DNA from: Verrucomicrobiia bacterium
GTDB taxonomy: Bacteria; Verrucomicrobiota; Verrucomicrobiia; Limisphaerales; CAIMTB01
Length of the DNA stretch: 64,000 bases
Direction: 5' to 3'
Assembly: GCA_019634625.1 (NCBI GenBank)
Contig: JAHCBA010000011.1
Span: 62,001-126,000 of the forward strand
The position numbers and the translations under genes are program-made. Position 1 is the first letter of the stretch. Each line of letters begins with the position of its first letter. Positions 12,795 through 62,146 of this stretch are shown here, in pieces. A model generated the notes under the pieces. That model had not been told where the DNA came from. It did not search any database and saw only the letters and a list, made by a program, of their open reading frames with translations.

Positions 12795-12981
<187 letters not shown>

Positions 12982-15466: not shown

Positions 15467-18400
15467 CTACGGCACCCCGTTCACCCTGTAGAACCGGCGG
15501 GAATGGGTGTGGGGCTGCGTTTCGAGGACCTCCAGCATGCCCCCGAACACGTTGGTCGTGAGCATCGGGGTCCAGGAGATCAGGTCGTCGCCGACCGCCA
15601 CCTCGTAGGTTCCGGGGCCGACGGTCTGCTGGATCAGCAGTCCGCCGTCCACGAGACTCAGAACGGCGCCGTTCACAGGGGCGAGGGCCAGCGAGTAGGA
15701 GAGCTGGATGCGGCCCTGGGCGCCTTCGACGCCATCGACCATGACGAGATAATCCTCGCCGGCATGGGCGCCGAACATCACTTCGCTGTGGGTGGCGGGC
15801 GGGATCGGCACAGCCAGCGCGACTTCCTGAAGGGTGGTGCGGTTGGTGTACACCCCGAGGACGGTGGGAATTTCGCTGCCTTCGGTGGAAATGGCCATCC
15901 AGCCGGAGCTGGACGCCCGGAACCGGAACCACAAGGTCGCGCCGCCGAGTTCGCCCAGCACCATCGGATCGTCCGGAGCCCGGTGGGCGCCGCCGTTGGA
16001 AGTCTCACGTGAACCCGGGATTCCCGGGGCGACCGAGGTGAAGGGGGCACCGCCCCCTCCGAAGAGGGCCCGCTGGGTGGTGGCCACCGGCTCGGGGAAC
16101 AGGTCCTCACGCTTGTCCCGGGCCGGAGCTTCGTCAGGGCGCGACACGACCTCGAGCAGCACGTCCCGGGTGCGGACGGACTGGCCTTGTGCGGTGGTCA
16201 CCAGGACGGCGTAGAGGCCCGCCTGGACGCGGGTCACCGTGGGCAGGACCAGGACGGGCTGGGTGCCGCCCGGCACGGGAGTGCCGTTGAAGTACCACTG
16301 ATAGCGCAGCCCTTCGCCCTCGACGGGCGCGGACAAAGTCCAGGCCGCACCCTCCTGAACGGTGCCGCCCTGCAAGGGTGCGACCAGACGGGGCAGGGGA
16401 GCGAGCCCCATGGTCCAGTCCCAACTGAACACGACCGTTCCGGCGGCCCCCGCATAACCGTCCACGACGATGTGGTAATCGACATCCCGAACGGCATCGA
16501 ACTCGACCCGGCTGGCCAGGAATCCGGCGCCATCGTCGTCGCTGGCCACCTCGACCAGGGTCCCCAGGCTGGAGCCGGTGTACACGGACAACAGGGTGTC
16601 GAAGCTGGAACCGGCGGTGGAAAAGATCATCCGCCCGTTGTCCGGGGCGCGCCAGGTGAGCCAGACCGAACGGCCGCCCCGCTTTCCGGCGTGGGCGGGT
16701 TCTCCGGCCTCCCGGCCGGCATCGATCGTGGTGGTCGTTCCCGATCCCTGGGCTCCTGACAGGCGGCCTCGATTCACGAAGGCATCGGCAAACGGCAGCG
16801 TGGGCAGCGCCAGGCTGAGGGTGGCGGGCTGGCTCTCCACGAGGCCCGCGCGGTTGGCCACCACCACGCTGTACGCCCCGGCGTCCTCGACCGTCACGCC
16901 CTCCAACCGCAGCGTGGGACCGCGGGCATCGCGAATGTTTTGACCGTTCTTTCTCCACTGGTACACCAGCGGCCCTTCCCCTTCGGCGACCACCGAGAAT
17001 TCAACCGTCGCCCCGGTCGAAACGCGCTGGCTGAGGGGCCCGGTGACCAGCAGGGGGAGCGGGGTGAAGATCGCCTGCGCGCCGGCCCGCAGCTCGAAGG
17101 TCGTGCCAAGACGATCCCGCAGACTTGGGAAGGCGACCGTTCCGCCGTCGAGCACCACGGTGGCGTCGGCGATCCGCACGAACTGCCCGGTGGAGATGAA
17201 GGCATTCAGGGCGATCAACAACTGGCCTCCCTCGAACTCCCGCGCGTTGGGCAGCAGGATGCGGCCCTCCGACGTCGCCCGCAGCCAGGGGGTGTAGGCC
17301 ACATCGGGTCCGCGCCACAAGCCCGTCGCCCCGCTGAAATCCACCACCCCGCCTCCCGAGGCCGAGACCCGGAACGGCCCCACCATCCGCGTCAGTCCGC
17401 TGAGATCGATGCGTCCCGCGGTCTCGGCATGGAGGTCGAAGTAGCCCGTCCTCGAGAACTGCACGGACTTCAGGCCCCTCGCATCGAGGATGGAGCCCGG
17501 ATCGCGGGCCCGCCAGGTCATGCCCGAGCACCGCAACTCGGCGACCTTCGGCAAACGCAACACGCCGCCCTCCCAGACGGACAGATCGCTGTCGTCCACG
17601 ACGGTCAACGCCTCGAACGACGGCTCGGCCCCCCGCACATGCACGGTGCTCCGCGTCAGCGCCGCCAACTGGGCCGTCGGAATGCCGTCCCGCGCATCGA
17701 GGTCCAGCGTTCCCCGGTCAAACTCGGTGATGCCCGGGATGCGGATCCTGCCCCGGGTGCTGGTCTTGAGGGAATGCCGGTAAGCGAAGCCCTCGCTGGT
17801 CCAGCGTCCGCGGGCGCCGCTCAGCTCCACCAGGCCGCCCGAACTGGCGGTCACGCGCAGCGGGCCGAGCAGGGCTTCCACGCTCCCCAGGTTCACCTGG
17901 CCGTCGGTGGTCGCGTTGATGTCCATGTACGTGGCGTTGGCGAAGGTCAATTGCCTCACCGCACCCCCATCGATCATCGAACCCGGATCCTGCGCCCGCC
18001 AGGTCTGGCCTCCGGCCCGAACCGAGGTCACCCCCGGCAACGCCAGCACCCCGCCGCCGAGGGCGGTCAGGTCGCTGCCATCGACATTGCCCAGCGCTTC
18101 GAACCCGCCCTTGAACCCGCGCACCACCAGCGCGCCCTGGGTCAACTCCTGCAGCTTCCCGGTCGGGATGGCCTCGAGGGAATCCAGGTCGATGGTCCCC
18201 CGATCGAACCCGCTCAACCCGGGCACCAGAATGCGCCCGCCGGTGTCGGCCTTGAGCATCTGGCGGTAAGCGAATCCTTCGCTGGTCCACCGTCCCTCCA
18301 GGGACTGAAGGTCCACCAGACCGCCGCCGCTGGCGGTAATGCGAATGGGACCGCGCACTTCCTTGAGCCCTGACAGGATCGCCCGGCCCTGGGACGAGAC

Positions 18401-19486
18401 GTTGATGTCGAAGTACGAGGCGGTGGCAAATGCCACGGTCCCGAGTGCCGAGACGTCCAGAACCGAGCCGGGATCCTGAACCCGCCAGTTCGCCGAGGTC
18501 ATCCGCACTCCGGTCACCCCGCCCAGGCTCAGGGTCGCACCCGCCGCCACGGTGATATCCGTGTCGTCCACCCGGGTCAGCGACGCAAAAGCCCCCTTGG
18601 TCCCGCGGACTGTGAGGGTGCCGCCGGTCAACGCGGTCCATTGCCGGGTTGGCAACGCGTCGTCCGAGTCGATGTCCACCTCGCCCCGGTCGAACTCGGT
18701 CAGCAGCGGCACCAGAATCGTCCCCCGGTTCCGGGCCCGCAGCAGGGAGCGGTAGGCGAAGCCCTCGCTGCTCCAACGGCCCCGCAGGCTGCTCAGGTCC
18801 ACCGTTCCACCTTCCGTCGCCGTGACCCGCATGGGTCCGAGGAGGCCGGGAAACTTCGGCAGATCGATGCGCCCTTCGCCAGTGGCCTGGACCTCAAAAT
18901 ACCCGTTGGCCGTGAGGTGGACTTCGCCCAGGGATGGCGCCTCGATCCAGGAGCCGATGCCGTGCGCCCACCAGCGTGAGATCGCGCTCCGCACCTGGGC
19001 CACGTTGGAAAGCCGCGCCTGGGCACCGTCGCGAACGGTCAGGTCCCCTCCCCATTCCACGGCCGCGCCGCCCCCCAGCAGGACCGTCTTCGCCCCCCGC
19101 ACCACCAGGGAAGCTCCCTGGGACACGGTGAAGTTCCCCCCGATCCGCGATTCCCCCTCGGTCAGCGTCAGCGTGCCGCCCGACACCCGCACACCGTCCG
19201 GCGCCTGAATCCTCAGCACCGTGACATTACCGCTCCGGATCTCGACGGGTCCGGTGCGCGGGGGGATCTCCACGTCATCGGCTGTTCCCGGCACCGCGCC
19301 GCCGCTCCAGTTGGCGGCGTCGTTCCAAGCCAGGGAGGCGCCCCGGCCAATCCAGGTCACCGTGGCCGCCCACGCAGCCGGCGCGGTTCCAAGCCAGCAG
19401 GCCAGACCCAGAAACAGGCGCCAGGGAACCCTGCGACCGGGGTCGGGTCCGATCGCACCTGGGGATTCGCATCGCGGCGGGGTCAT
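15467..19486 (-). CDS. Giant secreted protein: 162-aa repeats, Ig-like domains, C-terminal RFYR module
   Basis: 1339 aa. The signal region ends AAWAATVTW (about residue 41). Residues 45-215 form a beta-helix-like start (WNDAANWSGGAVPGTADDVEIP). Three full and one partial copies of a ~162-residue module follow (about 216-810); each has LRGRWSSEGFAYR, a FDRGxxDLD motif, a VRG motif and a WRxxDPGSxxD motif. Next come an Ig-like domain (YQWRKNGQNI), a pre-peptidase-like module (GGRSVWLTWRAPDNG), a second Ig-like domain (RYQWYFNGTPV), another beta module, and a final ~50-residue module ending RRFYRVNGVP. No enzyme motif. The start overlaps the upstream gene stop by 4 bases (ATGA). Probably a surface or matrix protein. 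Confidence 0.87.
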   Translation of the reverse strand: MTPPRCESPGAIGPDPGRRVPWRLFLGLACWLGTAPAAWAATVTWIGRGASLAWNDAANWSGGAVPGTADDVEIPPRTGPVEIRSGNVTVLRIQAPDGVRVSGGTLTLTEGESRIGGNFTVSQGASLVVRGAKTVLLGGGAAVEWGGDLTVRDGAQARLSNVAQVRSAISRWWAHGIGSWIEAPSLGEVHLTANGYFEVQATGEGRIDLPKFPGLLGPMRVTATEGGTVDLSSLRGRWSSEGFAYRSLLRARNRGTILVPLLTEFDRGEVDIDSDDALPTRQWTALTGGTLTVRGTKGAFASLTRVDDTDITVAAGATLSLGGVTGVRMTSANWRVQDPGSVLDVSALGTVAFATASYFDINVSSQGRAILSGLKEVRGPIRITASGGGLVDLQSLEGRWTSEGFAYRQMLKADTGGRILVPGLSGFDRGTIDLDSLEAIPTGKLQELTQGALVVRGFKGGFEALGNVDGSDLTALGGGVLALPGVTSVRAGGQTWRAQDPGSMIDGGAVRQLTFANATYMDINATTDGQVNLGSVEALLGPLRVTASSGGLVELSGARGRWTSEGFAYRHSLKTSTRGRIRIPGITEFDRGTLDLDARDGIPTAQLAALTRSTVHVRGAEPSFEALTVVDDSDLSVWEGGVLRLPKVAELRCSGMTWRARDPGSILDARGLKSVQFSRTGYFDLHAETAGRIDLSGLTRMVGPFRVSASGGGVVDFSGATGLWRGPDVAYTPWLRATSEGRILLPNAREFEGGQLLIALNAFISTGQFVRIADATVVLDGGTVAFPSLRDRLGTTFELRAGAQAIFTPLPLLVTGPLSQRVSTGATVEFSVVAEGEGPLVYQWRKNGQNIRDARGPTLRLEGVTVEDAGAYSVVVANRAGLVESQPATLSLALPTLPFADAFVNRGRLSGAQGSGTTTTIDAGREAGEPAHAGKRGGRSVWLTWRAPDNGRMIFSTAGSSFDTLLSVYTGSSLGTLVEVASDDDGAGFLASRVEFDAVRDVDYHIVVDGYAGAAGTVVFSWDWTMGLAPLPRLVAPLQGGTVQEGAAWTLSAPVEGEGLRYQWYFNGTPVPGGTQPVLVLPTVTRVQAGLYAVLVTTAQGQSVRTRDVLLEVVSRPDEAPARDKREDLFPEPVATTQRALFGGGGAPFTSVAPGIPGSRETSNGGAHRAPDDPMVLGELGGATLWFRFRASSSGWMAISTEGSEIPTVLGVYTNRTTLQEVALAVPIPPATHSEVMFGAHAGEDYLVMVDGVEGAQGRIQLSYSLALAPVNGAVLSLVDGGLLIQQTVGPGTYEVAVGDDLISWTPMLTTNVFGGMLEVLETQPHTHSRRFYRVNGVP

Positions 19487-21420
19487 GGCACACCTCGAAT
19501 CCAGTAGAAGCGGCGGGGCCGGTCGGAGGCGCCGGCGTCGAAGAATCGCAGCACCCCGCCGGTGACATTGGTCGTCGTGACCGGGGTCAGCCGGCTCATC
19601 GCGTCGCCGCGCAGGATTTCATAGGTTCCCGGGGGCACGATCATTTCGAGACTGAACCCGGCGGGGGACAAGCCCATGACGGGGGGCCGCACCTCGGCGA
19701 GTTGGACCGAGTAGGCGAGCCGCACCGGGCCGCGGGCGCCGTTCACGCCATCGATCATCACCAGGTAGTCCTCGCCGGCATGGGCACCGAACACCACTTC
19801 GGCATGCGACCGCGGCGGCACCGGCCGGCTCTCCGTGACGACGCTCAGGGCGAACCGGTTGGTGTACACGCCGAGAACCGCCGGGATGACGCTGCCCTCG
19901 GTGCTCAGGTGCATCCAGCCGGTTGCCATGGCCCGGAACCGGAACCACAGCGAGGCGCCCCCCACCTCGCCAAAGATGAGCGGATCCTCCGGCGACCGCG
20001 TCGCTCCCTCATTCGTGGTATCCCGCCAGCCTGGCAACCCGGGCGCCACGGAGGTGAAGCCGCCCCCTCCGGCCCCATGGAGGCTGGCCCCCCCGTTCAG
20101 GGGATCATCGAAAAGGTCCTCGAACTTGTCGCGGGCCGGGGCTGCCGGACCGGACACCACCTCAATGAGCGCCCATGGGGATTCGACCACCTGACCCGCG
20201 CTGTTGGCCACGCGGACGGAGTACTGACCGGCCTGGGCCGAGGTCACACTCTGGGCCGTCAGCAGGGCATCCCCTTCGCCCTCGATGGGTTCCCCGTTGA
20301 ACAGCCACTGGAACTGCAGTCCTTCGCCCTCGGCGACCACGGCGAGGTGAAGCGTGCCTCCCGAGACCACGATCTCCGACTCCGGGGCGGCCACGATCCG
20401 CGGCAGCGGCGGCGCGCCCGGTTCCAACTCCCAGCTCAGCACCACGCTGCCTTCCGCACCGGCAAAGCCGTCCACCGCGACGTGATAGTCCGTTCCCGCG
20501 ACGGCATTGAAGCGCACCACACTGGTCAGGTAGGAGCCGCCGTCATCGTTGGCCGCCACTTCGATCAAGCTGCCGGGCGTGCTTCCCGTGTACACCGCCA
20601 GCACCGTGTCGAAGGTCGAACCCGCAGTCGCGAATGTGGCCACCCCGCTGGCCGGGGCACGCCAGGTGATCCACACGGATCGGCCCCCGCGTTTGCCGGC
20701 GTGACGCGGCTCGCCACTGGCTCCCTCCCAGGTGGCGCCACGGTTGTTCCCGCGTCCCACGCCCGTGGCGTCCCCGATCAAGCCGCGATCGGCGAAGGCA
20801 TCGGCGAAGGGCAGTTCCGGCACGTCGATTTCGAGCACCACCGATCGGCTTTCCAGGGTCCCGTCCGGCGTGGACGCCAGCACGGTGTACCGTCCGCCGT
20901 CCGCGAGCCGCACGTTGGGGATCTCGAGGACCGGCTGGTTGGCGCCCGGGACGTCATTCCCGTTCACCCGCCACACGTAGCGGATGGAGTCCGAACCCTG
21001 GGCTTCCGCCTCGAACCGGACCGGGCCTCCCACCACGGCCCGCGCGTCGGCCGGTTGCCGTGCCCAATAGAGGAGTCGGTCCACCGCGGGTGACACCAGG
21101 GCGGGCTCGCTCAACACCGAGCCAAACGCGTCGGTCACTCGCACCCGGTACACGCCAAACTGGTCCTCACGGATGGCGGGCAGGAGCAGTTGATCCTCCG
21201 TGGCGCCCTCGACCGTCTCGCCCTCCAACAACCAGGCGAACCGCAAAAATCCGCTTCCCTGGGCCCCGACCCGCAGTCGCACGGCCTCGCCGATTCCGGC
21301 TTCGGTCCCGACCGGCTGCACGGTGATGATCGGCGGGGGCATCTCCTCGTCGGCGCGCCCGGGCCAGAGCCCTGGCAGCCCGCAGGCCAACAGCACGGCA
21401 GCCCAACGCCACTTTCCCAT
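19483..21420 (-). CDS. Secreted Ig-like protein, partner of the 1339-aa protein
   Basis: 645 aa from ATG 21420, giving signal peptide MGKWRWAAVLLACGLPGLW. Order: two Ig-like domains (FAWLLEGETVEG, YVWRVNGNDVPG; about 30-205), a pre-peptidase-like module (GGRSVWITWRAPASGVATF, about 225-345), a third Ig-like domain (FQWLFNGEPIEG), a beta module (GGASLWFRFRAMATG) and a C-terminal module ending RRFYWIRGVP. The second half is closely related to the 1339-aa protein, so the pair probably arose by duplication. The 5' region is itself a 138-bp tandem duplication that copies the start codon and ten signal-peptide codons in frame, so ATG 21558 is an alternative start. Stop and next start overlap (ATGA). 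Confidence 0.85.
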   Translation of the reverse strand: MGKWRWAAVLLACGLPGLWPGRADEEMPPPIITVQPVGTEAGIGEAVRLRVGAQGSGFLRFAWLLEGETVEGATEDQLLLPAIREDQFGVYRVRVTDAFGSVLSEPALVSPAVDRLLYWARQPADARAVVGGPVRFEAEAQGSDSIRYVWRVNGNDVPGANQPVLEIPNVRLADGGRYTVLASTPDGTLESRSVVLEIDVPELPFADAFADRGLIGDATGVGRGNNRGATWEGASGEPRHAGKRGGRSVWITWRAPASGVATFATAGSTFDTVLAVYTGSTPGSLIEVAANDDGGSYLTSVVRFNAVAGTDYHVAVDGFAGAEGSVVLSWELEPGAPPLPRIVAAPESEIVVSGGTLHLAVVAEGEGLQFQWLFNGEPIEGEGDALLTAQSVTSAQAGQYSVRVANSAGQVVESPWALIEVVSGPAAPARDKFEDLFDDPLNGGASLHGAGGGGFTSVAPGLPGWRDTTNEGATRSPEDPLIFGEVGGASLWFRFRAMATGWMHLSTEGSVIPAVLGVYTNRFALSVVTESRPVPPRSHAEVVFGAHAGEDYLVMIDGVNGARGPVRLAYSVQLAEVRPPVMGLSPAGFSLEMIVPPGTYEILRGDAMSRLTPVTTTNVTGGVLRFFDAGASDRPRRFYWIRGVP

Positions 21421-21652
21421 CAGGTGCGAACGTCGTGGCTCGGGCTGCGGACAACCGGGTCCGCGCGTCCCGCAGCCTGGAAGGGGCCCAGGCGGACAGG
21501 GCTGTCCGCGCTCCAGCCCGCCCGCCAACAGCACGGCAGCCCAACGCCACCTTCCCATCAGGTGCGAACGTCGTGGCTCGGGCTGCGGACAACCGGGTCC
21601 GCGCGTCCCGCAGCCTGACTGGGGCCCGGGCGGACAGGGCTGTCCGCGCTCC
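21386..21652 (-). repeat. 138-bp tandem duplication over the gene start, each copy with a perfect hairpin
   Basis: Copy A 21386-21523 and copy B 21524-21652 are nearly identical, offset exactly 138 bp (46 codons). Each contains the initiation codon, the first codons of the signal peptide, and the perfect inverted repeat GCGGACAG-GG-CTGTCCGC (21492-21509 and 21630-21647). The rest of the 343-bp gap (21653-21763) holds only a GGGGGC/ACCCCCC hairpin near 21661 and nothing gene-like. Confidence 0.9.
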
Positions 21653-21763
21653 GGAGGAAGGGGGGCACCCCCCGACTTCATCCTCCGAGGTGCATTCCGT
21701 TCAAGGGGCCTCATCCCGGGCCCTAAGCCCGCCAGCGCCGTCGCCTCCCGTGCCGGGCCCGCC

Positions 21764-24700
21764 TCAGAAATCGAAGCGCAGCGATGTGGTGAAGGTTCGG
21801 TCACGGTACGGCTCCCGGTAGCTGTTCAAAGGGTTCAACCGGTAATCCTGGTCGGTGAGGTTGAGGACCCCGGCGCGAATCTCGACGTTCCGCCGGTCGA
21901 AACGCCAGCCCGCATGCAGGTTCACATGCCAGAAATCGTCCCCCGGCCGGTCCGGGCTGTACCCGCGGTTCGACTGCTGCGTCCACACCCCCTCGGCCAG
22001 CGCGAAGAACCCGGTCGGATGGGTGTAGCGCCCCTCGATCCGCACCTGGTGCAGCAGCGACTCCACCTCCCGCCCGGATCCCGGGAACGCCGGCAGCGCG
22101 TCCACCAGCGTGGCCTCGCTCATCCGGTACCCCGCCCCCACCGACACGTCCCGGCCCAGCAGTTGATGGACCGTCACCGTCACCGAGTCCTCATCATAAC
22201 GCAGTCCCTGACGCAGTGTCCCCACCGTCGGGGCCGCCCCGAACGGCAGTTCGCGCACCCCGAGGTTCCGGTCGGCCCGGGATTCGAGGCGTTCCCAGCC
22301 GACGGTCAGATAGGTGCGGGTCGGGAAGCGCTGCTCGAAGCTCACCCCCCACGTCTCGAACGCCTGTCCGGCCACCGACCCCGCCGCCGCCTCGGGAATC
22401 AATCCGCGGTACGCCTGGTTGAACCCGGCAATCTGGGTCGGTTCCAACCGGAAACTCTGATCGAAGCTCACCCCGCCCAGCGATCGCGTGTAGGCCCCCC
22501 GCAACACCCCGTCCCGCCACGGGGTCACGGTCACCCCGGCCTTCGGAGAGACGCGGTCGAGGGTTTCCTCGCCCTCGATGACCGGCGCGATCCGGTAGTT
22601 CACCGGCTGCCGCAACCGGTCGTAGCTCAATCCCGCCGACAACCGCAGCCAGTCGAGCACCTGCCAGTGTTCGTACCCGTAGGCGGTGAACCGCAGCAGA
22701 TCCGCCTCGAGGTCCTGGCTCAACCCCGGCACCGGCACCCCGGCCGCGTTGCCCGGTCCCAGTTCGGTCCGTGTCTCGAAGGATCCCGTCTGCTGCCGCA
22801 ACCCGACGATCACCGTGTGCGCCTCGTGCTGCCAGATGTGCTGACCCTCGAAGGACCACGTCACGAACTCGTTTTCGTACCGGAGCGGGGTGGGGACGGT
22901 GACCTGCCGGAACGGGCTGCCATCCGGATTGCGGAACAGCACCGAACTGGTCGCCAGCGGATCGTCCATGGTGTAGCGGTCGTGAAGCCGGGAGACGAGC
23001 AACAGGGTGTCGGAACCCGGGGCCCAGGCGCGATGCCAGCCCACCAGGACCTGCGGTTCCTGCCGGTCCGTCGCCCGCAACCGCGGGTTGGCGTCCGCCG
23101 GGTCGTAGTACGGCGCCACGTCTCCGAATTCGGCATCGGAATAGATCAGTTGCAGGAACGCTCCATCCCGGGCGCCCACCTGCTGCTTGGCCTGGAGCGA
23201 GAGGGTCAGTTGCTCGGCGTCGTCATTGATGCGCTGCCCGTTGGCGGAGCGGTACATGACGTCGAGGGCGTATCCGAACGACCCGAAGGTTCCGAACTGC
23301 GATCCGGTCTGCTGCCAGTCGCCGTTGCTCCAATAATCCGTCCTGCCCGCCAACCCGGGTCCGTCTCGCTCGAACAACCGCGAATACTCGTTCGGCGCCA
23401 GAGTGGTCGAAAGCCGGCCCGCTCCCACCGGCGCGAGGAGATTGGCCACCAGGAACTCGCTGAACCACGCGGTCTCGTACCGCAGATCCACCTGGTTGGC
23501 GTCGCGCCGCGCGTTGTAGCTGTCGGCCAGGAACTGGTGCGCCGAGAAACTCAGGTAATCGTCCTCGACCGCCCGCGTCGCCGCCCGTTCCCCGTACGCC
23601 TCCAGACCCGCATCCCGGTAGAGCGCGGCGAGGTTCGCGCCCCGGACAGAACGGTCCTGGTCGAGACCCAGACGCGACCGATAGACCGCCCGGTTGTCGT
23701 TCAGGTCCAGGGACCGTTCGAGGTCGGCCACCGCCTCGTTCACCCGGTTCTCCCGCTGGCGCATCAACGCCGAATACAGCCACGGCGTTGGATCGCCCGG
23801 ATCCAGTTCCCTCGCCCGATCGAGTTCATGCTCCGCCCTGCCCGCCAGCGCCGGGGTCCGGAAGGCGCGGGAATCGGACAACGCCTTCCCGAGGTAACTC
23901 CGCAACGCCGCCCGCTGCGGTTCCAGCGCCGCCGCCGCCTGCAAATCCTCCCGCCCGGCCTCGAGTTCGCCCCGCCGGATGCGGACCAGCCCGCGCCCGA
24001 GCCAGGCGTTCCCCAGCGCGGGATCCAGCCGCAACGCCTCTTCGAACGCCGCTTCCGCCTCCCGCACCCGATGGCGCGCCGCCGCCAGGAACCCGCGCAG
24101 GGTGTGGGCTTCGGCGTGTTCCGGCACCAGGGCCAGCCCGCGCTCGAGCGCCTGTTCCGCCGCCCGCGTGTTCCCCAGCACAAACTCCAGCTCGGCCAGC
24201 CGCACCCATGCCAACCCGAAGTCCGGCGATACGTCCGTCGCCGCCCGCGCCAGGTCGCGCGCCGCCGCCAGCCGGGCCCCGGCCTGACGCGCATACGAGG
24301 CTGCCAGCAGTTCGGTCGCCAGCGGCGTCTCGTGATCCGGTCCGTCGGTCGATCCCCGCCGGACGGTGTCGATCAACCGCCGATGCGCGACTGCCAGCCG
24401 GCCCCACGGATCGTCCTCATCCTCCGGCTCCATTCCTTCCAGCACCGACTCCGCCTCCTCGACCGATCCAACAGCCAGCAGCAGGGCCGCGAGAAACACC
24501 TTCTCGTCAGGTCGTTCCGGCCACCGGTCCGCGGGGTACCCGGCCATGGCCTGCGGCAGGTTGCCGCGCCGGTACGCCGCCCAGGCCGCCGCCAGTTCGG
24601 GCACAGGCACCCCGGCTTCCCCCCATCCAAGATCCGCCGGATCCAGGATCGCCGGGTAATACAACGCCCACTGCACGGCCGACCAGTCGCCCGCCTCGAT

Positions 24701-25252
24701 CCTCGCGAGGCGCCGCGGTGCCATGCCGTCGCCCGCCTCGGCCACATCGCCGCTCCCGATGGACAACGACCGACCTTCGGCGTCGGTGAGATCCACCTCG
24801 CCGTCGAAGAGCGTCAGGCGCATCCCGCCTGCCTCCCGCACCTCGAAGGCGAATTCCGTGCCGCGAACGACCGCGCTCACCCCGCCGCCCTCGATGGTGA
24901 CCTGACCGGCCTGCCCCTGATGAAAGAAGGAAATGATCCCGCGCAGGATCTGCAACAGCGTCCCCTGCGGCCGGTCCGCGAACCGCAGCATGGACATCTC
25001 CCGCACCGGCATGATCGAGCGGTCCCGCAATTGCAGCGTGGCCCGGCTCCGCGGCCCGGTGCGGAGCATGTCGCCCCCGTACAGCACCTGGTTGGTCGCC
25101 GCGGTGTACCACGTTGCCGTGCCGGCAGGCTGGAACTGCACCTGGCCACTGAGGGCAACGACGGTCGCCTGGGCCACCCGTCCGGAATCCGCGGCCTCCG
25201 CCGGAACGGCGAACACCAGGAACAAACAGGCCCACCACCAACAACAACGCAT
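21764..25252 (-). CDS. FecR-TPR-outer-membrane beta-barrel fusion protein
   Basis: 1162 aa. Signal peptide MRCCWWWACLFLVFAVPAEA. A FecR domain follows (about 25-165: VALSGQVQFQPAGTATW, RTGPRSRATLQLRDRSIM, VRGTEFAFEVREAGGMRLTLFDGEVDL). Then come TPR repeats (about 190-570: AEQALERGLALVPEHAEAHT, AEAAFEEALRLDPALGNAWL). The last ~560 residues are a TonB-receptor/porin-like beta barrel with alternating strands and a terminal phenylalanine (TTSLRFDF), the outer-membrane assembly signal. ATG 25252 was chosen; GTG 25261 (overlapping the upstream stop, GGAAGG 7 bases before) is an equally good start. It lies 5 bp after the CHASE2/cyclase gene. Role inferred: periplasmic sensing coupled to an outer-membrane channel or secretion scaffold. 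Confidence 0.88.
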   Translation of the reverse strand: MRCCWWWACLFLVFAVPAEAADSGRVAQATVVALSGQVQFQPAGTATWYTAATNQVLYGGDMLRTGPRSRATLQLRDRSIMPVREMSMLRFADRPQGTLLQILRGIISFFHQGQAGQVTIEGGGVSAVVRGTEFAFEVREAGGMRLTLFDGEVDLTDAEGRSLSIGSGDVAEAGDGMAPRRLARIEAGDWSAVQWALYYPAILDPADLGWGEAGVPVPELAAAWAAYRRGNLPQAMAGYPADRWPERPDEKVFLAALLLAVGSVEEAESVLEGMEPEDEDDPWGRLAVAHRRLIDTVRRGSTDGPDHETPLATELLAASYARQAGARLAAARDLARAATDVSPDFGLAWVRLAELEFVLGNTRAAEQALERGLALVPEHAEAHTLRGFLAAARHRVREAEAAFEEALRLDPALGNAWLGRGLVRIRRGELEAGREDLQAAAALEPQRAALRSYLGKALSDSRAFRTPALAGRAEHELDRARELDPGDPTPWLYSALMRQRENRVNEAVADLERSLDLNDNRAVYRSRLGLDQDRSVRGANLAALYRDAGLEAYGERAATRAVEDDYLSFSAHQFLADSYNARRDANQVDLRYETAWFSEFLVANLLAPVGAGRLSTTLAPNEYSRLFERDGPGLAGRTDYWSNGDWQQTGSQFGTFGSFGYALDVMYRSANGQRINDDAEQLTLSLQAKQQVGARDGAFLQLIYSDAEFGDVAPYYDPADANPRLRATDRQEPQVLVGWHRAWAPGSDTLLLVSRLHDRYTMDDPLATSSVLFRNPDGSPFRQVTVPTPLRYENEFVTWSFEGQHIWQHEAHTVIVGLRQQTGSFETRTELGPGNAAGVPVPGLSQDLEADLLRFTAYGYEHWQVLDWLRLSAGLSYDRLRQPVNYRIAPVIEGEETLDRVSPKAGVTVTPWRDGVLRGAYTRSLGGVSFDQSFRLEPTQIAGFNQAYRGLIPEAAAGSVAGQAFETWGVSFEQRFPTRTYLTVGWERLESRADRNLGVRELPFGAAPTVGTLRQGLRYDEDSVTVTVHQLLGRDVSVGAGYRMSEATLVDALPAFPGSGREVESLLHQVRIEGRYTHPTGFFALAEGVWTQQSNRGYSPDRPGDDFWHVNLHAGWRFDRRNVEIRAGVLNLTDQDYRLNPLNSYREPYRDRTFTTSLRFDF

Positions 25253-25257
25253 GCGGT

Positions 25258-27108
25258 TCACTTCGTGCCTTCCGTTCGGAGAGACGCCCGGCGCCCGGTC
25301 ACCTGGGCCCAGGCCACCACCGACCAGCCCAGCGCCAGGGGGAGCTGCACCGCGCTGAACGCCAGCCACGGGAACCAGATCTGCGTCACCCATACGCTGG
25401 TCATGGCCAGCAGGCCCACCACAGTGCCCGCCCCCACCGCCAGGATCAAGGCGGGCAATGGACGCAGGAAACACAGCCCGAACCCCGCCACCCCGCCCAG
25501 CACCGTCACCAGGCTGAGCTGCATCCACGGCGTTGGCAGCCGCAGCCAGTCGCCCCGCATCCGGTTCAGGGTGGCCGTGGCCACAATCTCCACCCCGGCC
25601 GATCGCCGCTCGCTCTTCGAGAACCGGTTGTACGGCGTCAGAAAATCGTCCGTCCCCTTCCCGCCCGTGAACGGCAGGTCATACACCGCCCCCACGAACA
25701 CGACGCGGTTCGAGAGACTCGTCGGGTCGATCCGCCCTCCCAAGACGGCGGAATACGGGTGCGACGGCACCGTTCCCGCCGGCCCGTAGTAGTTCAGCCA
25801 CGGGTTCCGCGGGGCCACGCCGCCCCGCTCCCCGAGCACCTGCATCACCGCGCTCGAAAGAGATTCCTTCAGCTCGACCTCCCGCCCTGGACGCCGAATC
25901 GTCCGGTCGGCCCCGGCCCGTTCGACCAAACCCCAGACCGCCACCTCCTCGATTTCCGGGATCGGGCCCTGGGTCCGGTGCCCCAGAAAAATCTCAGGCC
26001 GTTCCTCCGCCTGAAGCACCCCCGCGACCACCACCTTTCCGAAGCGCTTCGCCGCCTCGATGAACGCCTGGTCCTGCCCGGGATCCTCCGCCGGAAGATC
26101 AAACAACACGTCGAACACCACACACCGCGCCCCCATCTCCGCCAGGCGATCAATCAGCGCCGCATGCACCCGGCGGTCCCATTGCTGCAACCAGGGCTGC
26201 CCCAGCTCGTCGTGCGATTCCGAATCCATCCGCACAATCGCCGCCTCCGTCGGCACCTCGGTCTTCCGAAACAGGTAACCCCAGTCGTAACTCGCCTCCA
26301 CGATCCCGGGCACCATCACGCCCGCCCATCCCACCAACACCGAGACCGCCGCCCCAATCCACGCCAGACGCCGGCTCACCCGCCGTCCCACCAGCCACCT
26401 CCGCCAGCCCGTCGCCTCCTCCTCCTCCGGCTCCTCCGCCACCGCCACCCGCTTGACCTTGTCCGAATCGGCCGGCGCCTCGAGCGGCGCCCGGCCGGGA
26501 TCGGTGACCTCACAGATCTCGATCGGTTCGGCCACCCCCTTCAACTGATAGTGGCCATGGCTCGCCCACTCGACCCGGTCCACCTGCGGAATCGGCGTCC
26601 CCTTCAAACCCGCCCGCGCGTTCTCGAAGGCGAACCGCGTCAACAGCACCTGACCCCCCTGCGCCAGCGACATCACCCGGGCGCACTTGTCCACCTCCAG
26701 CCCGTGCAGATCATGGATTCCCCCCTGCGCGTTGGCCTCGACCGTCACCTCCCCCGCATGCACCCCGACCCGGTCCTGCACCGGGCGTCCCGCCTCCCGG
26801 TTCCACGCGTGCAGTCTGGCCTGAAGCCGGAGCGAGAAGGCCACCGCATCCGAAGGACGCCGGAACGCCAGGAAGAAGGAATCCCCCGAGGTGCTCACCT
26901 CCAGCCCGCCCTGATACTCCCGCAACAGGTCCCGGACCAGCCGGTGATGCTCCAGGATCAGCCGCAACGCCTCGCTGTTCCCCAACTCCTCCTTCAGCCG
27001 CGTGGAACCGACCAGATCGGTAAAGACCAGCGTCATCACCTCCTGCCGCTCGGGGCCGTGCGAGGTGTTGGTCGGATCGGGTTCGGGAACCTGGGGGGGC
27101 CGGCTCAT
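25258..27108 (-). CDS. Adenylate/guanylate cyclase domain followed by CHASE2 sensor
   Basis: 616 aa from ATG 27108 (GTG 27126 possible). Residues about 22-190 are a class III nucleotide cyclase: TLVFTDLVGSTRL with the first metal Asp, STSGDSFFLAF with the second, VGVHAGEV, and DLHGLEVDKCARV where the usual Asn is Asp. The substrate-selecting Lys is Ser, so ATP or GTP specificity cannot be predicted and activity may be weak. An acidic linker (EEPEEEEATG) and a membrane helix (WIGAAVSVLVGWAGVMV) precede an extracytoplasmic CHASE2 domain (about 265-510: AIVRMDSESHDELGQPWLQQWDRR, GARCVVFDVLFDLP, NYYGPAGT, VVFVGAVYDL) and three C-terminal membrane helices. The usual order is CHASE2 first, cyclase last. 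First gene of the four-gene block. Confidence 0.88.
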   Translation of the reverse strand: MSRPPQVPEPDPTNTSHGPERQEVMTLVFTDLVGSTRLKEELGNSEALRLILEHHRLVRDLLREYQGGLEVSTSGDSFFLAFRRPSDAVAFSLRLQARLHAWNREAGRPVQDRVGVHAGEVTVEANAQGGIHDLHGLEVDKCARVMSLAQGGQVLLTRFAFENARAGLKGTPIPQVDRVEWASHGHYQLKGVAEPIEICEVTDPGRAPLEAPADSDKVKRVAVAEEPEEEEATGWRRWLVGRRVSRRLAWIGAAVSVLVGWAGVMVPGIVEASYDWGYLFRKTEVPTEAAIVRMDSESHDELGQPWLQQWDRRVHAALIDRLAEMGARCVVFDVLFDLPAEDPGQDQAFIEAAKRFGKVVVAGVLQAEERPEIFLGHRTQGPIPEIEEVAVWGLVERAGADRTIRRPGREVELKESLSSAVMQVLGERGGVAPRNPWLNYYGPAGTVPSHPYSAVLGGRIDPTSLSNRVVFVGAVYDLPFTGGKGTDDFLTPYNRFSKSERRSAGVEIVATATLNRMRGDWLRLPTPWMQLSLVTVLGGVAGFGLCFLRPLPALILAVGAGTVVGLLAMTSVWVTQIWFPWLAFSAVQLPLALGWSVVAWAQVTGRRASLRTEGTK

Positions 27109-27433
27109 GTCCGGTCGAACGAGCACGCTGCCGTCAGGAACAATTCCCGCCGCGCCGCTCCGTCACTGCCCTAAACCCTCGCGGTGTCGTCGCCGATTAC
27201 GCAAGCGCCCATTTCCAGGTTGGCCCGATCAGGGGTCCGCATTCGGAGGGCCGAGTTCCACGAGGCCGCAAACGAGTGGTGCATCGGGATGAGGACATCA
27301 TCTCACGCGAAGACGCCAGGACGCAAAGTGGACGCCTGAGGAGATGGAATGGGGCATCGCCACTCCCCATTCCCCACTCCCCATTCCCCCCGGCTTGAGC
27401 CCCTCCTTCCGCATCGGCAGGGTGAGCCCCTCG
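27109..27433. other. Divergent intergenic region with repeats
   Basis: 325 bp between the cyclase and glycosyltransferase genes. It holds a half copy of the 74-bp palindrome (27242-27296), three degenerate octamers ACGCGAAG/ACGCCAGG/ACGCAAAG (27305-27328), an inverted GAATGGGG/CCCCATTC pair, and two 14-mers ACTCCCCATTCCCC (27362-27389). No promoter could be assigned. Confidence 0.7.
27242..27296 (-). repeat. Half copy of the 74-bp palindromic repeat
   Basis: TTCGGAGGGCCGAGTTCCAC then GAGGCCGCAAACGAGTGG and a short ATGAGGACATC; the far arm is lost. Confidence 0.75.
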
Positions 27434-31554: not shown

Positions 31555-34170
31555 TCAGGAGGGCGCGCCGGGGAGCGGAATGATCCGGTAGAATCGCAGG
31601 TTCGGCTGGGGCGCAGTGGTGTCTTCGACCTCGATGCGTCCCTGGGCATCCGCCGTGGCGGGATCGCCGAGGGGAAGCCAGGGACCGTTCACGTTATCCG
31701 ACCACTGGACCTGGTAGGCGACGCCGGGGATGCCGGCGAAACGGATCAGGAACCCATCTTCAGTCGGGACCACGCGGGCGGGATTGTCGCCGGCGGCCTC
31801 CGCATCGCGCACGTTGACGAGGACGGTGCCGACGGCCGTTTCGCCGCGGCCATCGGAGAGCAGGTAGGTGAATGAGTCGTCGCCGGAAAAATCGGCTGGG
31901 GGCGTGTAGGTGACCACGCCATCGGAGAGGGCCACGGTTCCGCCCGCGGTGCTGGTGGCATCAACGGCCGTGATCGAGAGCGCGTCTCCGTCGGGATCGG
32001 TGTCGTTGACGAGGAGTTTGGCGACAAAGACGGCCGACGGCGCGCCTTCGTCGGTCTGGAGCGTGTCGGTGCCTGCGGTGGGAACCCCATTGGCGAGAAG
32101 GGTCAGCGCATAGTCTTCGACCTCGCCGTCGGAGGCTTCGCCGAGGGGACTGAGGCCGGCCACGGAACTGAACCGGAACCGGGCGAAGGTGACGCCGCTG
32201 ACGACGCCGGACGGGACGCTGACGGCCAGGACGTGGGGATTGCCGGCCTCGGACAGGGCGAGGTCGGTGAAGACCTGTTCACCGGCGTCGTTCCAGTCGC
32301 CGTCCCGATTCCAGTCGATCCAGGCGTTGAGCGTGCCGGAGCCGGTCACGGTCACGGTCAGATTGACCGCCAGCCCCCCGGGAAAGGAGACGGGGAGCGA
32401 GACACCGTCCTCGTCCGCGGTGTCGGCGAGGTCGTCGCCGGTCGCCGTGGCATCGGGTTGTCCGTCCGGTTCGGCATCCAGGGGCACGGTTCCGAGGTGG
32501 AGGGTGGCGCCTCCGGGAGGGATGCGATGACGGGCGCCGTCGTGGGCAAGGAGCACGGGATAACTCGAGGCGAAGCCGGACTGGGCGGCGGTGGGGGCGT
32601 CGCCGAAATCGAGACCCAGTAGATGGAAGGTGTCCCCGGGCCCGGCAGCGGGCGCGGAATTCCCCGCGAGGTCGGTGGCGGTTCCCGCTGCCAGGGAGAG
32701 CCCAAGCGTGCCGACCCCGGACAACCCCGAGAGCGTGACCGTCCGTGCGGCGGCTCCGGAGCCGGTGACCTCGACGGTGGTGGCGGCGGCGGATCCGGTG
32801 GTGTTGAGGGTGATGTTCCCGGTAGCGAGACTGACGGAGTGCGCGCCACCGTAGGAAATTGTGTAAGTCACCGGACCCCCGCCGGCCGTGGTCTGGGAAA
32901 GGGACGGGGCGCCGATGAGGACCGTGGGCGGGAGGGTGTCGATGGTGACGAAAAGGGCGTCGGACGGGACGCTGGTGCCGGCGCCGGTGGTGGCGGTGGC
33001 GGTGATGAGATGGGTGCCGTCGGAAAGGGTGGAGGTGGTGACGGACCAGTTGCCGCTGCCGTCGGCGGGGCCGCTGCCCACTGTGCCGTGGACGCTGCTC
33101 GAGACGGTGATCGTGGCACCGGCGGGTCCGGTACCAATGAACGTCGGGGTGTTGTCCGCGGTAATGTTGTCGGTCGAGGACGCGCCGGTATCGCTGGCGG
33201 CGGCGAGGTCGGGGGTGGAGGGAGGATTGGGCGGCGGGGGGCGGTAAATGGCGACCATCTGAAAGGTCGCGGAAGTCACCGGGGCGACGATTTGCGTGCG
33301 GCCCGTCCCGTCGAGGTTGTAGCGCAACAGGCCCTGGCCTGCCGTTGGGGGGCTCCCGTCGGCGACGTAGAGGTGGTTGTTGACGGTGTCCACGGTCACG
33401 CCGCTGGGTTGGGCGAAGTGGGCGGCGTCGGAGGCGAGGGTGACGATGCTCGAGCCGTCGAGATTGGCGGACTTGAGGGCGTCGAGGGAGGACGTGCCAC
33501 TGCCCTGGGTGAAGTAGAGCTTGCCACCGGCGACCGCCACGTCGGAGTAGGTCGCCGAGGCGGTGGGGGCAATGACCACCGTGCGGCCTGTCCCGTCGAG
33601 GTTGTAGCGCAGAATGCCGAGGGTGTCGGCGAGGTAGAGGTGGCTGTTGGCGAGGTCGAGCGCGATGCCGTTGGGCTGGGTGAAGTTGCCGGAGTCCGAG
33701 GCGAGGGTGACGATCCCTGAGCCATCGAGATTGGCGGACTTGAGGGCATCGAGAGAGCTCGTACCGCTGCCTTGGGTGAAGTACAGCTTGCCGCCGCCGA
33801 CGGTCACGCCGTTGTAAAGGGCCGTGGCGGTAGGGGCGACGATCACGGTGCGGCCGGAGCCGTCGAGGTTGTAGCGTACGATCCCCGCGCCGGTGACCGA
33901 GGCATCGGCGACGTACACATGGCCGTTGGCGGCGTCGATGGCGAGGCCTCTGGGCTGGATGAAGTTGCCGGAATCGGAAGCGAGCGTGGTCAGGCTGGAG
34001 CCATCCAGATTGGCGGACTTGAGGGCATCCAGGGATGCGGTGCCGCTGGCCTGGGTGAAGTAGAGCGTGGCGGCGGCAGCGGGTGTCGCCTGGCTCATCG
34101 CCAACAGGAACGCGATGGCGAACAGGAGAAGCCCCGTGGGAGCGCGTTTCTCCGGATCAGGCGGAGTCAT
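31555..34170 (-). CDS. Secreted propeller/Ig/GEVED surface protein
   Basis: 871 aa from ATG 34170 (ATG 34194 possible). Signal peptide (LLLFAIAFLLAMSQATPAAAA). Residues about 35-310 are three near-identical ~93-aa beta-propeller repeats (LYFTQGSGTSSLDALKSANL, LYVADxS, RYNLDGTGRTxIVAP). After a Pro linker come a bacterial Ig-like domain (TPTFIGTGPAGATITVSS), a second sandwich, a GEVED domain (LDFGDAPTAAQSGF, NAWIDWNRDGDW, DGEVEDYAL), a cadherin-like Ig domain (TDEGAPSAVFVAKLLVNDTD, TYTPPADFSGDDSFTYLLSDG) and a C-terminal module (AYQVQWSDNVNGPW, LRFYRIIPLPG). No catalytic motif; probably an adhesin or matrix protein. It lies 28 bp upstream of the PEP-CTERM gene. Confidence 0.87.
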   Translation of the reverse strand: MTPPDPEKRAPTGLLLFAIAFLLAMSQATPAAAATLYFTQASGTASLDALKSANLDGSSLTTLASDSGNFIQPRGLAIDAANGHVYVADASVTGAGIVRYNLDGSGRTVIVAPTATALYNGVTVGGGKLYFTQGSGTSSLDALKSANLDGSGIVTLASDSGNFTQPNGIALDLANSHLYLADTLGILRYNLDGTGRTVVIAPTASATYSDVAVAGGKLYFTQGSGTSSLDALKSANLDGSSIVTLASDAAHFAQPSGVTVDTVNNHLYVADGSPPTAGQGLLRYNLDGTGRTQIVAPVTSATFQMVAIYRPPPPNPPSTPDLAAASDTGASSTDNITADNTPTFIGTGPAGATITVSSSVHGTVGSGPADGSGNWSVTTSTLSDGTHLITATATTGAGTSVPSDALFVTIDTLPPTVLIGAPSLSQTTAGGGPVTYTISYGGAHSVSLATGNITLNTTGSAAATTVEVTGSGAAARTVTLSGLSGVGTLGLSLAAGTATDLAGNSAPAAGPGDTFHLLGLDFGDAPTAAQSGFASSYPVLLAHDGARHRIPPGGATLHLGTVPLDAEPDGQPDATATGDDLADTADEDGVSLPVSFPGGLAVNLTVTVTGSGTLNAWIDWNRDGDWNDAGEQVFTDLALSEAGNPHVLAVSVPSGVVSGVTFARFRFSSVAGLSPLGEASDGEVEDYALTLLANGVPTAGTDTLQTDEGAPSAVFVAKLLVNDTDPDGDALSITAVDATSTAGGTVALSDGVVTYTPPADFSGDDSFTYLLSDGRGETAVGTVLVNVRDAEAAGDNPARVVPTEDGFLIRFAGIPGVAYQVQWSDNVNGPWLPLGDPATADAQGRIEVEDTTAPQPNLRFYRIIPLPGAPS

Positions 34171-34198
34171 GAGGTCGAAGGGAATCGAGGGCATGAAT

Positions 34199-60805: not shown

Positions 60806-62146
60806 ATGAAGACTCCGCTCCGCCCCTTGGAAGGTTCCATCCTCGCCCCCCGCGGCTTTCGCGCGTCCGGCGTGTTCTGCGACATCAAACGCCTCGGAAC
60901 CGGCAAGGGCTCCCAGAAGGGCGCCAAGCGGGACCTCGCCCTCATCGTCTCGGACGTCCCCTGCTCCGTGGCCGGCCTGTTCACGACCAACCAGGTCTGC
61001 GCCGCCCCCGTGAAGGTCTGCCTCGAACGGGTCCCTTCCGGTCGCGCCCAGGCGATCGTGGTCAATTCCGGCAACGCCAATGCCTGCACCGGACGCCAGG
61101 GACTCCGCGACGCCCGGGCCATGACCGACTGCGCCGGACGCCTGCTCGGCCTTCCCCCGGAACAGGTCCTGGTCGGGTCCACCGGCCGCATCGGGGTCGC
61201 CCTCCCCATGGATCGCGTCGAGTCCGGCATTGCCGCGGCGGTCGGGGCCCTCGGCGACACCCCGGCCCATGCCGACCAGGCGGCCGAGGCCATCCTCACC
61301 AGCGACACCCGACCCAAGGCCGTTGCCGTCGAGTTCCGACTCGCCGGCAAAACCGTCCGCCTCGGCGGCATCGCCAAGGGCGCGGGCATGATCCAGCCCG
61401 GCATGTCCGCCGATGGCCAGCGTCCCGCCGCCGTCCCGCGGGGTCTGCACGCGACCATGCTCGCCTTTCTCACCACCGACGCCGCCATCGACGCCCGCAC
61501 CCTGCGGCCCATGCTCGAGGAAGCCGTGGCGCTGAGTTTCAACCGCATCACCGTGGACGGCGACATGAGCACCAACGACACCGTGCTGCTCCTGGCCAAT
61601 GGTCTCTCCGGCACACCCCGATCCGCCGTGCGCGGCAGGACGTCCGCCGGTGCCCGCATCTTTCAGGCCGCCCTCAACCAGGTCTGCCTCGAACTCGCCC
61701 GGGCCATCGTCCGCGACGGCGAAGGCGTCCATCGCGTGGTCACCGTCCGCGTCGAAGGCGCCCGCTCGAACGCCGAAGCCGACGCCGCGGCCCGGGCGGT
61801 CGCCAACAGCGCCCTCGTGAAAACCAGCTGGCACGGCGGCGATCCGAACTGGGGCCGCATCATCGATGCCCTCGGTTACAGCCCGGCCCGCGTCGAGGAG
61901 GAGCGGGTGGACATCGGCTACCGCACGCCCGGCGCCCGAACCATCGTCTGGAGCCTGCGCCGCGGCCAGCCGACCCGGACCGCCTTCGAGACTCTCTGCG
62001 CCGTGGTGGCACCGGCCGAATTCGAACTCCACATCCGGCTGGGACTCGGCAGGGGCGCCGCCACCCTCTACGCTGCGGATCTCACCGAGGCCTACGTCGA
62101 TTTCAACAAGGGCGCCCTCGGCGACCCGTCCGCCATGGGAGGCTGA
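60806..62146 (+). CDS. argJ: Bifunctional glutamate N-acetyltransferase / ornithine acetyltransferase
   Basis: 446 aa. Recycles the acetyl group from N-acetylornithine to glutamate; the precursor cuts itself before a threonine. Motifs: VAGLFTTNQVCAAPVK, AIVVNSGNANACTG, VGSTGRIGVALPMDRVESGI, KGAGMIQPGM, HATMLAFLTTDA with nucleophile Thr 217, NRITVDGDMSTNDTVLLLAN and the C-terminal SYAY-like region. Between KGAGMIxPxM and ATML, which normally abut, there are about 15 extra residues (SADGQRPAAVPRGLH) immediately before the cleavage site. This is odd but may be lineage-specific. With argC it forms an arginine pair. Confidence 0.95.
   Translation: MKTPLRPLEGSILAPRGFRASGVFCDIKRLGTGKGSQKGAKRDLALIVSDVPCSVAGLFTTNQVCAAPVKVCLERVPSGRAQAIVVNSGNANACTGRQGLRDARAMTDCAGRLLGLPPEQVLVGSTGRIGVALPMDRVESGIAAAVGALGDTPAHADQAAEAILTSDTRPKAVAVEFRLAGKTVRLGGIAKGAGMIQPGMSADGQRPAAVPRGLHATMLAFLTTDAAIDARTLRPMLEEAVALSFNRITVDGDMSTNDTVLLLANGLSGTPRSAVRGRTSAGARIFQAALNQVCLELARAIVRDGEGVHRVVTVRVEGARSNAEADAAARAVANSALVKTSWHGGDPNWGRIIDALGYSPARVEEERVDIGYRTPGARTIVWSLRRGQPTRTAFETLCAVVAPAEFELHIRLGLGRGAATLYAADLTEAYVDFNKGALGDPSAMGG

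Follow-up and report, generated by a model that had tools for sequence, protein, structure and literature searches.

What do a nucleotide cyclase, a β-barrel of the outer-membrane type and two secreted proteins with immunoglobulin-like (Ig) domains do side by side? The question is raised by four genes of a Verrucomicrobiia bacterium (assembly GCA_019634625.1), which lie within positions 62,001 to 126,000 of contig JAHCBA010000011.1; this whole stretch of 64,000 nucleotides is the window of our analysis, and window coordinates are counted from its first letter. We regard it as likely that the locus encodes the Verrucomicrobiota version of a trans-envelope signalling unit of the type known as NsrA-CyaK in Sinorhizobium meliloti, with the two Ig proteins, Ig1 and Ig2, as dedicated surface partners. 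The initial annotation, made from the letters alone, had described four same-strand genes here, and all four are real: head-to-tail open reading frames on the minus strand, spanning 15467 to 27108-27126 and each with Pfam domains.

25258..27126, minus strand: cyclase-CHASE2 protein (Pfam), 616 amino acids from ATG 27108 or 622 from GTG 27126.
21764..25261, minus strand: FecR-TPR-barrel protein of the NsrA type, 1165 amino acids from a GTG start (Pfam, NsrA homology, AlphaFold2 model).
19483..21420, minus strand: Ig1, predicted secreted surface protein, 645 amino acids (Pfam, AlphaFold2 model, association with the barrel gene).
15467..19486, minus strand: Ig2, predicted secreted surface protein, 1339 amino acids (Pfam, repeat analysis, orthologue at the related locus L045).

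On the minus strand the order is cyclase-CHASE2, FecR-TPR-barrel, a gap, Ig1 and Ig2. Tight linkage exists within the two gene pairs but not between them: the stop of the cyclase-CHASE2 gene overlaps the barrel-gene start in a GTGA at 25258-25261, a junction the initial annotation did not mention, and the Ig genes share the ATGA it did report (19483-19486), whereas 343 bp separate the barrel gene from the likely Ig1 start, ATG 21420.

What kind of protein is the barrel? As first proposed, FecR, TPR and barrel form a single polypeptide, and Pfam and an AlphaFold2 model built from 72 relatives (mean predicted local distance difference test score, pLDDT, 89.9; predicted template-modelling score 0.86) agree on the parts and their order.

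24707..25174, minus strand: FecR domain, all-β, residues 30-185 (Pfam E=5.9e-9, model, hhalign to NsrA).
23435..24640, minus strand: TPR/helical arm, predicted periplasmic, residues 208-609; within it, the linker leading to the barrel is strongly conserved.
21764..23362, minus strand: 22-stranded β-barrel of the TonB-receptor type, residues 634-1165, no plug (model and PDB fold matches).

Pfam recognizes the FecR and TPR parts and gives the barrel a sub-threshold TonB_dep_Rec (PF00593) match; in the model its 22 strands occupy residues 634-1164. A PDB sequence search with the family profile gave only TPR proteins among the matches listed, and comparison of the barrel part by fold (Foldseek and VIA-align) gave TonB-dependent receptors in all the matches listed, with Z around 20: PirA (Z 22.1), FecA (Z 20.2 over 475 residues), FhuA and BtuB among them. 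A plug domain appears neither in Pfam nor in the model, and FecR and TPR precede the barrel. Of the ordinary plugged TonB receptor that the initial annotation had set against its own proposal, the structure thus has the barrel type without the plug; the RFYR modules which that annotation placed at the barrel C-terminus sit on the Ig proteins instead. Could this be a TonB-dependent uptake transporter with added regulatory periplasmic domains? Its barrel type and the PF00593 match are what one would expect, but the plug is missing, the N-terminal half is FecR and TPR, and no TonB, ExbB, ExbD or ABC (ATP-binding cassette) uptake genes were recognized in the operon; we consider it very unlikely. 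We attach next to no probability to a TPR-porin for exopolysaccharide export like PgaA or BcsC: a TPR array that weakly matches the NCBIfam family PgaA does stand ahead of the barrel, but the model has 22 strands rather than 16, its fold matches are TonB receptors, a FecR domain is present, and no polysaccharide synthase was recognized among the four genes.

The protein that does match throughout is NsrA. At the S. meliloti pSymB locus (CP140934.1), nsrA directly precedes and overlaps cyaK; NsrA combines FecR (66-160), TPR and a C-terminal barrel in one 1200-residue chain, and CyaK is a CHASE2-cyclase. Aligned with hhalign, the barrel family of the window matches NsrA with a probability of 99.9 over 981 columns, and separate profile comparisons establish homology in each of the three domains: P=1e-24 for FecR, 2e-12 for TPR and 2e-13 for the barrel (424 columns), against 0.22 for a reversed-barrel control. 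The barrel value required a profile of NsrA relatives, the single NsrA barrel sequence giving about 1e-4 to 8e-4. NsrA was reached by way of the CHASE2 cyclase and not by a direct barrel search; tblastn of the barrel protein against plasmids returned no match at 1e-5. The barrel-then-cyclase gene pair is kept in several rhizobial relatives and one Methylocystis relative. Since nsrA-cyaK already holds FecR, TPR and barrel in one chain, the single-polypeptide design that had seemed distinctive is, by sequence, the NsrA architecture and not new. NsrA is described as an outer-membrane protein required to perceive a plant signal, upstream of the CHASE2 cyclases CyaK and CyaD1/D2 (PMC7529298, PMC13001267). 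The two loci share roughly 1200-residue barrel proteins and an adjacent, overlapping CHASE2 cyclase gene, but differ in that (i) the gene order is reversed, (ii) the cyclase lies N-terminal of CHASE2 in the window and C-terminal in CyaK, and (iii) the window has Ig/PPC proteins, with none annotated beside nsrA, and has relatives with kinase outputs. A divergent gene annotated as DUF5706 or "Pycsar system effector family" stands beside nsrA-cyaK in Sinorhizobium and Rhizobium (L152 4648-5193, L157 2349-2888), possibly a cyclic-nucleotide-responsive effector adjoining the receptor pair.

If the barrel protein is an NsrA, is its neighbor a CyaK? The cyclase-CHASE2 protein carries the only CHASE2 domain in this genome, and two of its regions are assigned.

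26629..27051, minus strand: class III nucleotide cyclase domain (Pfam Guanylate_cyc, residues 26-166, E=2.6e-14, and alignment of catalytic residues).
25492..26334, minus strand: CHASE2 domain (Pfam, residues 265-545, E=7.6e-27).

Hydrophobic segments near residues 248, 530 and 551 predict a cytosolic N-terminal cyclase, a transmembrane segment, a periplasmic CHASE2 domain and C-terminal transmembrane segments. The CyaK order, CHASE2 followed by a C-terminal cyclase, is not that of this protein, which we file on its predicted layout as a CHASE2 cyclase of another type and not as CyaK itself. In alignment, the cyclase domain retains both metal-binding aspartates and the arginine; lysine is replaced by serine and asparagine by aspartate, so its product is uncertain.

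How might the parts work together? In the mechanism we propose, a surface signal would be received by the plugless 22-stranded barrel, placed in the outer membrane, together with an Ig partner; the TPR arm would reach into the periplasm and present the FecR domain, which would contact CHASE2, the periplasmic part of the cyclase-CHASE2 protein in the inner membrane, and so alter the cytoplasmic output of that protein. Ig1 and Ig2 would most likely be either a ligand-capturing co-receptor or adhesin for the barrel, or an adhesin under control of the unit.

Do related genomes keep these parts together? A phylum search with the full barrel protein (E 1e-40) found it in 8 of 337 genomes, a figure that understates its spread, two candidates being scored per genome. 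A contig scan found at least 527 barrel relatives, of which the best 80 named Verrucomicrobiota loci were kept; as the best-scoring loci, they lie near the query, and a few contigs are present in both sets. One CHASE2 gene (contig G004:C194) was left out because its neighbors are unrelated. A CHASE2 gene lies within 4 kb of the barrel gene at 53 of the 80 loci, and at 21 of the 27 whose flanks extend 4 kb or more in each direction. Counted by gene rank, CHASE2 occupies 47/248 positions within two genes of the barrel gene vs. 2/251 positions at least four genes away (p=2e-13), on the same strand in 49 cases vs. 2; Ig+PPC genes take 25/248 near positions and 0/251 far ones (p=1e-8). The suggested co-occurrence in related genomes is therefore borne out for both partners, and with it the core of the "sensor plus outer-membrane port plus surface clients" reading, as a conserved set. 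The exact four-gene order was found nowhere else and is rejected as a conserved unit: in L045, the nearest relative, the set comprises three genes, with a single Ig protein.

What changes among the relatives is the output. The CHASE2 neighbor is cyclase-CHASE2 in the window, cyclase-CHASE2-serine/threonine kinase at L045, CHASE2-kinase at L046 and L047, and elsewhere CHASE2-PAS-histidine kinase, which at several loci has a sigma-54 response regulator alongside. Each genome of the genus holds one to several copies of the barrel gene; other copies adjoin genes for extracytoplasmic function (ECF) sigma factors and kinase-WD40 proteins, without CHASE2. A quick FastTree tree groups the outputs by clade and implies eight or more output changes; in it, a fully supported clade unites the window with L045, L046 and L096. 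This clade contains the intermediate triple fusion and so preserves the series cyclase-CHASE2, cyclase-CHASE2-kinase, CHASE2-kinase. Two other kinds of neighbor were seen: glutaminase-STAS-cyclic-nucleotide-binding proteins by barrel/CHASE2-cyclase genes (L060 12993-14777, L064 5827-7662), which may be cyclic-nucleotide-responsive outputs, and a small gene (about 94-142 codons) on the opposite strand between barrel and CHASE2-kinase genes (L134, L139, L141, L144, L146, L147), often with an ECF gene on the other side.

The variety of outputs bears on the proposal of an undescribed display or secretion system, in which the plugless barrel, regulated by the cyclase-CHASE2 protein, would serve as a port for the export or anchoring of Ig1 and Ig2. 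A barrel modelled without a plug, the strong enrichment of Ig/PPC genes beside it, and the existence of TPR-barrel fusions that export polysaccharide (recalling the PgaA match) are all in keeping with such a port. But the barrel is the same kind across loci with different transmitters, a pattern more in line with sensing than with export. The most constant neighbor is a signalling protein with changing output, many barrel loci have no Ig/PPC neighbor, and the homolog NsrA acts as a signal receptor; beside the barrel gene, neither a secretion ATPase or chaperone nor a C-terminal secretion domain was recognized. We therefore judge export or display unlikely, and "undescribed" does not suit an architecture that NsrA shares. 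A narrower idea, that RFYR modules display the surface clients, was set aside: an RFYR-like C-terminus is also found on an unrelated gene of the window (31555-34194).

If the barrel protein is a receptor, what passes the signal on? FecR and CHASE2 also meet where no barrel is involved. At least 12 genomes of the phylum (e.g., G092, G275, G282, G324), found by eye on comparing the phylum lists of FecR and CHASE2 positions, carry CHASE2 at a distance of some 4 kb or less from a FecR gene of another architecture, and on a Leisingera plasmid a small FecR protein is paired with a CHASE2 cyclase. The Burkholderia BiofilmReg operon, whose disruption abolishes biofilm, pairs a LysM-FecR periplasmic protein with a CHASE2 sensor kinase (PMC5192318); unlike the window locus, it has no barrel, a two-component output and no Ig proteins. 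In Campylobacterota, a CHASE2 adenylate cyclase, a phosphodiesterase, a FecR outer-membrane protein and a TPR protein are clustered and were proposed to form one pathway (PMC9239204); different proteins carry FecR and TPR in that cluster, and no Ig partners are described. Since FecR without a barrel recurs near CHASE2 in the phylum, Burkholderia and Campylobacterota, FecR-CHASE2 looks like a shared signalling pair and the constant element of these systems. Fec-type signalling by FecA, FecR and FecI (reviewed in PMC11637429) likewise uses a TonB-receptor-type barrel and a FecR-type domain to carry an outer-membrane signal inwards; here, in contrast, FecR is fused to the barrel, with no anti-sigma part and no plug, and the receiver is CHASE2 rather than FecR/FecI. 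No ECF gene was recognized in the window operon; some relatives have them.

What, then, are Ig1 and Ig2? The "two giant Ig proteins" first announced do both have Pfam Ig domains, but Ig1 has only 645 residues and half of Ig2 is predicted β-helix. Ig1 reads Ig-Ig-PPC-Ig-PPC-like plus a C-terminal module, its Pfam matches being Ig and weak PPC; Ig2 has a repeat region of about 770 residues, then Ig-PPC-Ig-PPC-like, with two Ig domains, and the RFYR C-terminal module. The N-terminal region of Ig2 repeats with a 162-residue period and is probably a β-helix. Ig1 is modelled as all-β domains like a string of beads, its C-terminal module remaining unmodelled (pLDDT <50 from 577); its fold search gave generic Ig chains only, at low template-modelling scores, and is kept out of the functional argument. 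Both proteins resemble bacterial chains of PPC and Ig (I-set) domains in composition but differ in the ordered Ig-PPC-Ig-PPC design, the tie to the barrel family and a C-terminal module without a Pfam family. Among 12 genus-wide matches to the PPC-Ig-PPC region of Ig1 (E<1e-30), the barrel gene adjoins eight of the nine that can be placed; three others lie at contig ends (L162-L164). An Ig1 paralog in this genome (L153 5244-7184, G000:C41) is 53% identical and stands beside very large PPC/Ig proteins. Because L045 has an Ig2 ortholog directly after its barrel gene and no Ig1, an Ig2-like gene may have given rise to Ig1 through duplication of its C-terminal half.

Ig chains in bacteria often serve in adhesion, which lends some appeal to a narrower account: barrel and CHASE2 form the receptor, and the Ig proteins are ordinary adhesins that it merely regulates. 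Ig genes can share the strand of the barrel gene or lie opposite it, frequently in divergent orientation, and related loci hold other large surface proteins (FG-GAP/PKD) at the same place, both as this account would have it; but the PPC-Ig-PPC design recurs by the barrel and is rare elsewhere in the genus, which exceeds the needs of a generic target set. We see this account as a real possibility short of an even chance. Several observations weigh against the signalling unit with dedicated Ig partners. An Ig/PPC partner is present at only 24 of the 80 loci; roughly one in four sampled barrel loci shows no identifiable CHASE2 or Ig/PPC neighbor (many are on cut contigs), and the same holds for 5 of the 27 full-flank loci at the set distances. 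The C41 paralog of Ig1 is away from barrel genes within the stretch examined. Identity to NsrA is low, about 21-22%, and the cyclase, N-terminal and with its two substitutions non-canonical, may be inactive or use another substrate.

The gap ahead of Ig1 contains a further feature.

21376..21652, strand not assigned: 138-bp tandem duplication, two copies (94% match), in the barrel-Ig1 gap, carrying a palindromic repeat.

The duplication holds two copies of the palindromic repeat and also doubles the Ig1 start; as the duplicated part includes that start, the long-frame start at 21804 is not credible. The interspersed palindromic repeat GCGCGGACAGCCCTGTCCGC has 23 exact copies genome-wide (control pattern, 0). 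A second interspersed repeat, GGAGGGCCGAGTTCCACGAGGCCGCAA, has 10 copies in the 64 kb, with 0 expected (3536, 12483, 12578, 15328, 15423, 27245, 30695, 34201, 50850 and 63659), and inverted copies flank the four-gene locus on both sides. Outside the locus, about 30 copies of the hexamer CGAGTA (12795-12976) create low-complexity reading frames rich in EHEYEYDY.

The signals and the sensing mechanism of CHASE2 domains are a long-standing question; NsrA has been studied in rhizobia only, and a literature search for CHASE2 in Verrucomicrobia gave nothing relevant, judged by title. What is new here is the dedicated Ig-like surface partners and, in relatives, the interchangeable signal outputs. We tentatively suggest, while holding it as rather less than probable, that the NsrA design in Verrucomicrobiota is a general modular receptor class, in which the barrel and an Ig/PPC (or β-helix, or FG-GAP/PKD) protein would form a two-part contact or adhesion receptor and the CHASE2 receiver would be exchangeable among cyclase, serine/threonine kinase and histidine kinase/sigma-54 types. 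Across a large, multi-copy Verrucomicrobiota family, CHASE2 is repeatedly tied to an outer-membrane barrel that bears FecR, with changing outputs. This makes a testable case for contact between FecR and CHASE2 as the step that transmits the signal in a general trans-envelope system, and the recurrent surface partner identified here could lead to the ligand.

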